Under the pieces are notes generated by a model. The model ran no database searches. It was not told where the DNA came from and saw only the letters and a program-made list of their open reading frames with translations. From positions 1 through 5,693 of the forward strand of contig JAMORD010000129.1 of assembly GCA_027063755.1 (NCBI GenBank): a DNA stretch of 5,693 bases, written 5' to 3'. Of this stretch, positions 2,000-5,693 are shown piece by piece. Positions within the stretch are counted from its first letter, which is position 1. The number at the start of each line of letters is the position of its first letter. This stretch comes from a bacterium. GTDB taxonomy: Bacteria; Coprothermobacterota; Coprothermobacteria; Coprothermobacterales; JAADFF01. The position numbers were made by a program, and so were the translations under genes.

Positions 2000-2009
2000 A
2001 GGAGGTGAT
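2000..2009 (+). promoter_or_regulatory. Strong Shine-Dalgarno for the secreted stalk-domain gene
   Basis: AGGAGGTGAT is an uninterrupted 10-nt complement to the 3' end of bacterial 16S rRNA. It lies 8 nt (from AGGAGG) before the ATG at 2014. The in-frame GTG at 2005 and ATG at 2008 fall inside this site and cannot use it, so 2014 is the start. Confidence 0.85.
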
Positions 2010-2013
2010 GTTT

Positions 2014-3858
2014 ATGAAGAAAATGGTTGCCACAACTATTATTATGGCTATCGTTTTCATGACATTGCCGATAGCCGGTATTGTATGGGCGTCAGATAAG
2101 AAATATGTCAAGACAGGTACTATAGAGGCAACCTTCCCGAGGGTCTATGGTGATAAGCCCATTCATGTGAAACTGACTTACGAACTGAAAATCAATGATG
2201 ATTGGAATGATGCATGGCCCTTCTACCTGAAGTATACAGCCGTTATTAGTGGTGATAATTGGTCTAAGACAGTTCAGTGGGAAGACGATGTGGGTGATTT
2301 TGACGCTCGGATCGGTATTTGGTCTTCTTTCCCCGATCAGCTGGAGTACCGCCATGAAAAATCTCTGAAAAATCCTGATGATAAAGAAGAATATTTAGAG
2401 TATCCATCTCAGCTATTTCTTGTTATAGATGCACCACCATTCTGGGGTGGTTCTAATGTGGGATTTAAAGCGTGGGCAAATAGCCAGTTTGCCAAGACAA
2501 AGGTATATCTTGCCCTTGAGTACACGGCAGTAAGGGATCTCCGTGTGTGGTACAAGTCTGCCAAGATTGATATAAAGCCACTGAATATTCCTGATCCAGA
2601 TGGGGATAAGGTAATAGGCTACCAGTCTCGCTTGAGCTATTGGGTGATGACATCGGGAGATGGCAAATACTATTTGTCTGTTGATTTTCCACAGTATTCT
2701 TACTATGTTTTCCAATCAGGTTGGGTTGATATCCTATGGGATGACTCCCCTCTTCTCGCCGATAGTAAGTATGCATACTTCGTCTTGTTACCTAAGAGAG
2801 GTTATAGAGTCAATGAAGATATTGTCGGCTATGTATACAAGACACCATACAACGGTTCCTATATTAGACTTGTTGAAGCTCCCGGTGATAGCAATTATTT
2901 CATACCATATGCAACTGGTAGCAATATGGTGAAGAACTTACTTATTGGCAATGTTGGTGCTGAGATAGAACCAATTAAAGTTATAAAAAAGGGGCAATGG
3001 GTAAAATATGAAAATGATACAGTGAGAGCATTTATGGTGGAATATCCTTCTATCCCTTGGGGTCCTGTGTTTTCCAGCAGGGCATATGAATATTATTATG
3101 CATGGGACCAGTATGAGCCAGCGACATCTAAGTTCTGGACAGTGGGAGTGCAAAGGCAGTATACAGACAGCGAAGGTAAAGTCCAGACCACCGATTACTT
3201 TGTAAATGGCTACGGTTGTGCCGGTAGCTATAAAGGTTTCATAGAGAAGGGATTTTTATTTAAAGATTCTTATGATTGGAACTATGTACCTGCCGTTGAT
3301 AGAACACTTATGGAAAAGGTCTATAGTGTGCCCGATGGATTCCTCAATCCATGTTATGCTTCCCGTACATTCCGCTACAAATGGCTTGCCGATTGGTTCT
3401 ATAATGCCATATATCAGGATGCCAAGTATGAATATATACCCGGCAATGCATATATGGAAGTGGCGCTTGGGGATAAGCACATAAAAGCCTATCGTAGTGG
3501 CAAAGATGTGTCTCGTGATGTAGATGTACCAGCTCAGGTGGTAAACGGAAGAATGCTTGTTCCAGTAAGACACATAGCAGAGCCACTAGGTGCAAAGGTA
3601 GGCTGGGACGGCAAAGAGAGAAAAGTGACCATACAGCTCAATGGCCATACCGTAGAGATGTGGATAGACAACCCAGTGGGTAGGGTAGACGGTAAAGAAT
3701 ATACCATGCCCTCTGGCGTGCCACCGCAGATTATAAATAATAGAACGATGGTGCCTTTGAGATTTGTGGCAGAGGCACTGGGTGCCGAAGTGCAGTGGGA
3801 CTTTTATTACAAGAAGGCCATTATTAAGTATCTGCCAGACACATATCCATCTCAATAA
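2014..3858 (+). CDS. Secreted protein with C-terminal copper amine oxidase N-terminal-like (stalk) domain
   Basis: This gene encodes 614 residues. Residues 1-26 are a classic Sec signal peptide: basic MKK, a hydrophobic core, and a likely signal peptidase I site after VWA (26|27). No lipobox is present, so the product is probably exported and released or wall-associated. Residues about 481-614 form a 'copper amine oxidase N-terminal' (stalk) domain, recognised from two repeats: VPVRHIAEPLGAKVGWD (516-532) and VPLRFVAEALGAEVQWD (580-596), each preceded by a VNGR/INNR turn. Despite its name this domain does not bind copper and is common at the ends of secreted Firmicutes proteins. Residues 27-480 match nothing I recognise; they are rich in Tyr and Trp, look mainly beta-stranded, and contain only two cysteines (C402, C447) that could form a disulfide. 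No catalytic motif, SLH repeat or sortase signal is seen. The gene has its own strong ribosome site and is followed by a hairpin and then the 224-residue membrane-protein gene. Domain and export calls are firm; the function is unknown. Confidence 0.93.
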   Translation: MKKMVATTIIMAIVFMTLPIAGIVWASDKKYVKTGTIEATFPRVYGDKPIHVKLTYELKINDDWNDAWPFYLKYTAVISGDNWSKTVQWEDDVGDFDARIGIWSSFPDQLEYRHEKSLKNPDDKEEYLEYPSQLFLVIDAPPFWGGSNVGFKAWANSQFAKTKVYLALEYTAVRDLRVWYKSAKIDIKPLNIPDPDGDKVIGYQSRLSYWVMTSGDGKYYLSVDFPQYSYYVFQSGWVDILWDDSPLLADSKYAYFVLLPKRGYRVNEDIVGYVYKTPYNGSYIRLVEAPGDSNYFIPYATGSNMVKNLLIGNVGAEIEPIKVIKKGQWVKYENDTVRAFMVEYPSIPWGPVFSSRAYEYYYAWDQYEPATSKFWTVGVQRQYTDSEGKVQTTDYFVNGYGCAGSYKGFIEKGFLFKDSYDWNYVPAVDRTLMEKVYSVPDGFLNPCYASRTFRYKWLADWFYNAIYQDAKYEYIPGNAYMEVALGDKHIKAYRSGKDVSRDVDVPAQVVNGRMLVPVRHIAEPLGAKVGWDGKERKVTIQLNGHTVEMWIDNPVGRVDGKEYTMPSGVPPQIINNRTMVPLRFVAEALGAEVQWDFYYKKAIIKYLPDTYPSQ

Positions 3859-3861
3859 AAT

Positions 3862-3890
3862 AAGGGGGGCCTTTGTGCCCCCCTTTGGTT
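3862..3890 (+). terminator. Intercistronic GC-rich hairpin, leaky terminator or attenuator
   Basis: AAGGGGGGC (3862-3870) pairs perfectly with GCCCCCCTT (3877-3885) around the 6-nt loop CTTTGT. It starts 3 nt after the stop codon of the secreted-protein gene. The following tract, TGGTTTT, is interrupted, so termination on the plus strand may be partial. On the minus strand the stem is followed by ATTTTATT, so some bidirectional activity is possible. The next gene's Shine-Dalgarno begins 2 nt after this feature, leaving no space for a promoter between them. Confidence 0.75.
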
Positions 3891-4581: not shown

Positions 4582-4587
4582 TGCCCC

Positions 4588-4613
4588 AGGGGGTCCCCAA
4601 GGCCCCCTTTTTT
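4588..4613 (+). terminator. Rho-independent terminator after the plus-strand gene pair
   Basis: AGGGGG (4588-4593) pairs with CCCCCT (4603-4608) around a 9-nt loop and is followed directly by a run of six T (4608-4613). It begins 7 nt after the TGA of the 224-residue protein gene. The loop itself contains CCCC and could pair alternatively with the first arm. This is the best-formed terminator in the window. Confidence 0.85.
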
Positions 4614-4623
4614 CTGCATAAAG

Positions 4624-4728
4624 TTCCCCATTTGAACAAATAAATGAGCAAAATTGTTTGATTAAGCACTTTTTTGTTCATTTCCGGCTGTTTTGGTACG
4701 ATTCCCCATGGTGTAAAATGAACAAAAA
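4624..4728. repeat. Short imperfect direct repeats TTCCCCAT ... AATGARCAAAA
   Basis: TTCCCCAT occurs at 4624-4631 and 4702-4709, exactly 78 bp apart. Each is followed by a related motif: AATGAGCAAAA at 4643-4653 and AATGAACAAAA at 4717-4727. A further TTGAACAAAT lies at 4632-4641, and the reverse complement ATGAACAAAAAA lies at 4681-4670. Four related copies within about 100 bp are more than I would expect by chance, although AT-richness lowers the significance. They could be a protein-binding array or remnants of a duplicated element end. Confidence 0.45.
4671..4728. repeat. Perfect 13-bp inverted repeat with 32-nt spacer
   Basis: TTTTTGTTCATTT (4671-4683) and AAATGAACAAAAA (4716-4728) are exact reverse complements separated by 32 nt. 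The arms are AT-rich, so a stable RNA hairpin is less likely than a paired binding site or an element end. The spacer has mixed composition and contains the palindrome CCATGG. Confidence 0.6.
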
Positions 4729-5043
4729 GGGGGGATAAATATTCTCTTGGTGCTTGTGAGGGAAATTTGTCAGAAAATAATATTTGTGGGTTTGTGATGA
4801 AGCTTATATAGGGATTGATGGTTGTGCTGTTTTTCTTCAAGACAAAATCGCTTCTCATAAAATAGCACAAGCCACAGTAAGTGAAATGCTGTATACAGTA
4901 TATGGGGCTGAGTAGCAGGCATGATGTATGGTAGCCGGGTAGCCAGAGGTGGATATGGTATAGATGCAGAATGTATTTCTATTTTTCAATATGGTATTTA
5001 GATTGATATTTGCTTGAAACTTAACGACACATATTGTCACTAC

Positions 5044-5093
5044 TTTGGTGAAATTTATGCAGTGTTAATTCTAAATAACACTTTTGCACCAAA
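5044..5093. repeat. Nested inverted repeat (two-tier hairpin)
   Basis: The inner arms AGTGTTA (5061-5067) and TAACACT (5076-5082) enclose an 8-nt loop. The outer arms TTTGGTG (5044-5050) and CACCAAA (5087-5093) enclose the inner hairpin with an asymmetric internal loop (10 nt and 4 nt). It lies about 20 bp beyond the T tract of the minus-strand terminator. It might be a structured 3' element or a small-RNA fold; no promoter is evident. Confidence 0.5.
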
Positions 5094-5111
5094 ATGTATA
5101 TTGAAATTTTC

Positions 5112-5152
5112 AAAAAGGCTCCTCAGGAGGAGGCTTAAGCCTCCTCCTGAGG
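5112..5152 (-). terminator. Terminator on a perfect 32-bp palindrome overlapping the stop codon
   Basis: Positions 5121-5152 are a perfect palindrome: CCTCAGGAGGAGGCTT followed by its exact reverse complement. Read on the minus strand, the GC-rich stem is followed by AGCC and then TTTTT (5116-5112), giving a plausible rho-independent terminator. Unusually, its 5' arm is coding: the final codons of the upstream gene (Pro-Gln-Glu-Glu-Ala) and the TAA form the first half and centre of the hairpin. Confidence 0.75.
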
Positions 5153-5473
5153 TATTTCGCTTGAAAGCATTATGTGGTTGTATTTCATTTCCAGTTCTTT
5201 TAGCACCATTGTAGAGAAGAGATATTCCTTTATGGCAAATGTCATGTTTAGTATGTCGTGAAGTATGAAGGCTATGAGTGCTACAATGCCTGCCTCGTAT
5301 ATGTTAAAGCCAAGTAGCATAGTGGTAGCAACGATAATAATTGCGTAAGAGCCTTTTATTGCCGGTGTGTTCATAGATAGGTATGGTTTTACAAATATTG
5401 TGCCTTTTAGTAGTTCTATGAATCTTTCCAGTATCATGGCTATGCCTATCATCTGCCAGAGACTATGACTCAT
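5135..5473 (-). CDS. Small two-helix membrane protein, holin-like in shape
   Basis: The product is 112 residues. Two hydrophobic segments, about 42-56 (SYAIIIVATTMLLGF) and 58-78 (IYEAGIVALIAFILHDILNMT), are joined by a very short turn, suggesting a membrane hairpin. An amphipathic N-terminal helix (about 5-28) precedes them and an acidic C-terminal tail (SSEIPQEEA) follows. Small size, two or three helices and a charged tail are common to phage holins and many small membrane proteins, but I see no specific family signature, so holin is only a possibility. ATG 5473 follows directly on the TAA of the upstream gene, with GGAGG 8-9 nt before it inside that gene's last codons, so the two genes are very likely co-transcribed and translationally coupled. 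The stop codon lies within a palindromic terminator. Confidence 0.8.
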   Translation of the reverse strand: MSHSLWQMIGIAMILERFIELLKGTIFVKPYLSMNTPAIKGSYAIIIVATTMLLGFNIYEAGIVALIAFILHDILNMTFAIKEYLFSTMVLKELEMKYNHIMLSSEIPQEEA

Positions 5474-5693
5474 TTATGCCACCTCCTTTAGGTTTAAATG
5501 CAGTAAGTTGGGTGATATGCTATAGGCATTTATTACCTGTATAGCATCGTGCACTTTGCCCTTTTCTGCAAAGTATTTGGCGGCCTCAAAGGCTCCTATC
5601 TTGGGGTATTTCTTATACACCTGTTGCAGTTTTTCATTGTCTACATGCTTTTTGGCTGCGATGATGTAGTCAAAGATGATGTTAGAAGGTGGC
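5474..5693 (-). CDS. C-terminal end of an unrecognised protein (5' end beyond window)
   Basis: An open frame enters from the right edge and ends at TAA 5476-5474, giving 72 visible residues. The sequence is hydrophilic and looks helical (for example AAKKHVDNEKLQQVYKKYP, then GAFEAAKYFAEKGKVHDAI), with no membrane helix, cysteine or motif that I recognise. The repeated Ala/Lys helix pattern with AAKYFAEKGKVHDAI is loosely like helical-repeat proteins, but the fragment is too short to assign. It abuts the two-helix membrane protein gene with no spacing and carries that gene's ribosome site, so the two form an operon. It is real coding sequence judging by frame length, composition and context. 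Confidence 0.75.
   Translation of the reverse strand, partial: PPSNIIFDYIIAAKKHVDNEKLQQVYKKYPKIGAFEAAKYFAEKGKVHDAIQVINAYSISPNLLHLNLKEVA
5481..5489 (-). promoter_or_regulatory. Ribosome binding site embedded in the end of the upstream gene
   Basis: AAAGGAGGT on the minus strand lies 7-8 nt before ATG 5473. It is part of the last codons (Lys-Glu-Val) of the upstream gene, so ribosomes finishing that gene end next to this start. Confidence 0.8.

Follow-up and report, generated by a model that had tools for sequence, protein, structure and literature searches.

We conclude that residues 27-480 of a secreted stalk-domain protein form a genuine, lineage-restricted domain family mounted on a known modular architecture; the family is new and the architecture is not. 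The protein is encoded in the window (the whole stretch of 5,693 nucleotides analysed here, contig C129), which comes from a 1.5 Mb draft genome of a small-genome bacterium. A single ORF on the plus strand (2014-3858) gives a protein of 614 residues, and the interval 2092-3453, which the initial annotation had singled out, corresponds exactly to residues 27-480 counted from the ATG at 2014. The features of the protein and of its neighbourhood are collected in Table 1.

Table 1. Features of the stalk-protein gene and its neighbours (positions in the window)
Feature	Positions	Strand	Remarks
Divergent gene, GAF + HD/HD-GYP-type protein, cut by contig end	2-1900	-	its start adjoins the stalk gene in the relative too
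Shine-Dalgarno GGAGGTGA	2001-2008	+	5 bases 5' of ATG 2014; read from sequence
Signal peptide, residues 1-26, V-W-A then S27	2014-2091	+	sole strongly hydrophobic stretch of the protein
D1, residues ~27-192, predicted antiparallel beta (low confidence)	2092-2589	+	AlphaFold2; dN/dS 0.134
Possible linker, residues ~193-200, Pro/Asp/Gly-rich	2590-2613	+	one-residue indel relative to the relative; boundary inferred
D2, residues 201-480, most aromatic (Y+W ~16.7%)	2614-3453	+	two conserved Cys (402, 447)
Two-repeat stalk domain PF07833 (Cu_amine_oxidN1), residues 499-598	3508-3807	+	E 3.3e-32
Terminator-like hairpin, weak T run after it	3862-3885	+	3' of the stalk-protein gene
Downstream gene, one N-terminal TM helix + ~200 unrecognised residues, 224 residues	3907-4581	+	76% identity to the relative's neighbour

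Both ends of the protein had been described as clear in the initial annotation, as a signal peptide and a C-terminal double repeat, and both were borne out. Strongly hydrophobic windows are confined to residues 2-28, hydropathy across all 614 residues indicates no second TM segment, and the relative described below keeps the cleavage pattern (V-F-A then S). Judged by hydropathy and the V-W-A motif, the protein thus has the predicted secretion signal of a PF07833 stalk-domain protein. The stalk, whose repeats are MLVPVRHIAEPLGAKVGW and TMVPLRFVAEALGAEVQW, scores 111.1 bits against a PF07833 gathering score of 24.2, which places it in the family. Only the N1 domain is present; the catalytic domain of copper amine oxidases is absent by Pfam. 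The stalk is 89% identical to that of the relative, with a dN/dS of 0.07.

The stalk domain is a general extracellular module of the phylum, with 4-28 PF07833 matches per genome in eight genomes. Partners of the stalk sampled in the phylum include solute-binding domains (SBP_bac_1/8, PBP_like_2) and a glucodextranase C-terminal binding module, and the expectation that stalk domains carry variable partners therefore holds for this phylum. At three loci of the phylum (L018, L004 and L033), ABC-type solute-binding proteins carry a stalk domain at one terminus or the other, an unusual add-on for binding proteins.

Region 27-480 has one relative, found by scanning genome contigs. It lies on JAADFF010000033.1 (Dictyoglomota bacterium isolate L_MetaBat.91), which carries the same proteins as a contig of a same-genus genome (G001:C47). 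The two versions of the region are 81% identical in protein sequence, with pS 0.51, pN 0.11 and dN/dS 0.14 over 453 codons, and there is one copy per genome. The region is real and under purifying selection. A two-sequence profile was run against 386 genomes, seven of which belong to the order or phylum of the window, and against further sets of 54, 299 and 43 genomes (with a few overlaps) from stalk-bearing phyla; it found nothing else convincing. In all, the region was absent from ~770 other genomes, and collections of phages, plasmids and viral contigs yielded no relative of it. Weak matches in three genomes (G028, G029 and G078; E 0.008-0.07, short stretches) were treated as chance; the open frame in G028 encodes an unrelated-looking, lipoprotein-like secreted protein. 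The two profile sequences are nearly identical, so relatives below ~25-30% identity could be missed. Within what was searched, the region is restricted to one genus, in which two genomes carry it.

The gene neighbourhood, which the initial annotation proposed to survey, is conserved on both sides of the stalk-protein gene, within the genus only. The GAF-HD protein shows a genus-level expansion: two further relatives lie in tandem on G000:C177, and none occur in the seven other genomes of the order or phylum. A synteny search that used the GAF/HD gene to look for diverged homologues of the region found none outside the genus. The downstream gene has no family match in Pfam or PHROGs. Each of the two genus genomes carries a single distant paralogue of it (27-28% identity), and 58 other genomes yielded none; we regard it as a second genus-restricted family. 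Its paralogues (on C41 and C74) have unrelated genes for neighbours, and the gene pair is thus not duplicated. The hairpin between the two genes suggests that they may be transcribed separately. The window and the relative stop aligning at 4582. In the relative, a lipoprotein-like gene (L012, 3259-4179) that is absent from the window follows the downstream gene. In the window, ~550 bases (4583-5134) have no convincing gene or Rfam match. A near-perfect 14-pair palindrome, CCTCAGGAGGAGGCTTAAGCCTCCTCCTGAGG, at 5121-5152 probably terminates transcription of the minus-strand genes. Of these genes, 5138-5473 encodes a small membrane protein of 112 aa that is beyond the end of the alignment between the two genus genomes and was not found in G001 or in five other genomes of the phylum, and 5474-5692 is a partial ORF; neither has a convincing family match.

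Profile searches agree with the earlier statement that residues 27-480 match no family. There was no match over the curated cut-off in Pfam, where no CBM family was matched either, or in NCBIfam, and no family in PHROGs or PADLOC. Sub-pieces of the region gave only short chance matches at E<=10. The best match among all PDB sequences had E 0.75 over 32 residues; the CV39L lectin was rejected as a relative since this is chance level. For structure, AlphaFold2 on the whole region with the two-sequence alignment reached pLDDT 32, and this model was kept out of the fold search. The first 168 residues gave pLDDT 53 and pTM 0.55, with mostly antiparallel beta structure whose strands, in D1 residues 4-66, score ~60-74. 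A Foldseek search with this weak model returned no match at E<=0.001, and all of its matches were taken as noise on account of E>=0.29 and low TM-scores. The structure prediction and fold comparison that had been suggested as a check thus produced no significant fold match, from models that are weak, and neither kind of match that the initial annotation named as refuting its reading, by profile or by fold, turned up.

With two nearly identical sequences (Neff ~1.15), the sensitivity of profiles and of structure prediction is poor, and the region may yet adopt a fold that is already known. The initial annotation's proposal of a new extracellular domain stands as an unrecognised secreted domain ahead of a stalk; the weak models speak neither for nor against a known fold. 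We think there is an even chance that region 27-480 is a highly diverged version of a known extracellular domain (Ig-like, BsuPI-like, carbohydrate-binding or Big) that lies past the reach of two-sequence profiles, an origin that is compatible with any of the functions discussed below. The predicted antiparallel beta structure of D1 and the poor sensitivity of the searches are consistent with this origin, as are architectures in which BsuPI and Cu_amine_oxidN1 occur together (PMC3901451), although the chance-level matches of the sub-pieces and the insignificant Foldseek matches argue against it.

The composition of the region is distinctive. Tyr makes up 10.6% and Trp 4.0% of its residues (Tyr+Trp 14.5%), whereas the other stalk proteins that were sampled in the phylum have, outside their stalks, 0.8-8.2% Tyr and 0-2.6% Trp, and every one of them has a lower Tyr+Trp content. 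The aromatic content had been called high for a low-GC gene; the excess is real, and the low GC is just mildly true, as the region is 41.5% GC and not strongly AT-rich. Tyr codons are AT-rich, so the excess of Trp is the more telling. The relative keeps 60 of the 66 Trp and Tyr residues. The aromatics have no periodicity along the chain and thus give no sign of an aromatic face. Only one His (H51) and two Cys are conserved in the region, so a metal site built on His is improbable. No internal duplication between D1 and D2 was seen.

We suspect that the protein is a secreted modular protein in which region 27-480 is the outward ligand- or surface-binding part and the stalk presents it. This is the most likely of the functional readings, and we hold it tentatively. 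Cleavage of the signal peptide would leave the 454 residues of the region to act outside the cell, probably as two or more beta-rich modules. These might bind a polysaccharide, a peptide or a component of the envelope, with the conserved Tyr and Trp supplying contacts as well as a core. The two-repeat stalk would be a compact spacer or association module. A single-helix PF07833 domain homodimerises and stabilises PaSOD-1 of Paenibacillus (PMC10432803; PDB 8IMD), and in flavinylated proteins PF07833 is reported to act as a dimerisation domain (PMC11334425). In a PDB sequence search with the stalk, 8IMD was the only match, a weak one (repeat 2, E 0.64). By analogy to the comparison with E. coli amine oxidase in PMC10432803, one chain with two repeats may form a paired unit alone. 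We infer binding from the phylum's other stalk proteins, which carry solute-binding or glucodextranase-type modules and are not homologous in region 27-480. The predicted secretion signal, the aromatic excess, the dN/dS of 0.14 and the beta structure predicted for D1 with low confidence point in the same direction. Aromatic-rich beta proteins, however, can just as well be structural or enzymatic.

A structural role is somewhat unlikely and fares better than an enzymatic one. The region could be a building block of a surface coat or cell wall that is packed by its stalk and has no soluble ligand. A large, aromatic, probably beta-rich secreted region that is lineage-restricted and has no catalytic signature would fit such a block, as would the PF07833 proteins of the Gram-positive surfaceome (PMC4137172) and the dimerisation seen in PaSOD-1 (PMC10432803). 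However, S-layer homology, a sorting signal and a C-terminal anchor were not found, the gene is in no operon with envelope genes, and there is a single copy per genome. A secreted hydrolase or similar enzyme with a new catalytic domain seems doubtful. D2, at 280 residues, has a suitable size, and PF07833 occurs with wall hydrolases in the Gram-positive surfaceome (PMC4137172), but the single conserved His in 454 residues and the lack of a recognised catalytic motif argue against catalysis; acidic pairs are not judgeable from two sequences. Lastly, a spurious ORF, an assembly error or a frameshifted remnant, as presence in only two genomes might suggest, is refuted by an independent genome with an ORF of equal length and 81% protein identity at pS 0.51, by the dN/dS of 0.14 and by a good ribosome site.

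With this region, a small-genome phylum that has been little studied gains one well-supported family of extracellular domains, and structural work gains a clean target. Our results also illustrate that stalk domains in this phylum are a general scaffold on which a variety of extracellular parts is mounted. As secreted domains restricted to one lineage are common, the find is modest and should be useful to the specialist rather than surprising.

The closest counterparts are the other secreted PF07833 proteins of the phylum, which share the signal peptide, the double-repeat stalk and a separate large partner region. Their nameable partners are of the solute-binding or glucodextranase type, whereas the partner in the window matches none of these and is richer in Tyr and Trp. 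PaSOD-1 of Paenibacillus lautus (PDB 8IMD; PMC10432803) is likewise a fusion of PF07833 to a functional domain. However, its stalk is N-terminal with one helix or repeat and homodimerises, and its partner is a Cu/Zn-SOD, whereas the stalk described here is C-terminal and has two repeats. The tapirins of Caldicellulosiruptor (cited in PMC9933333) are discrete, structurally unique polymer-binding proteins of thermophiles, and we compare them by analogy only, with no claim of sequence relation. We speculate, as a long shot, that region 27-480 comprises one or two extracellular folds that are new, having arisen within the genus or changed there past recognition, and that a Tyr/Trp-rich surface lets them bind a polymer; the protein would then be a stalk-mounted counterpart of the tapirins.
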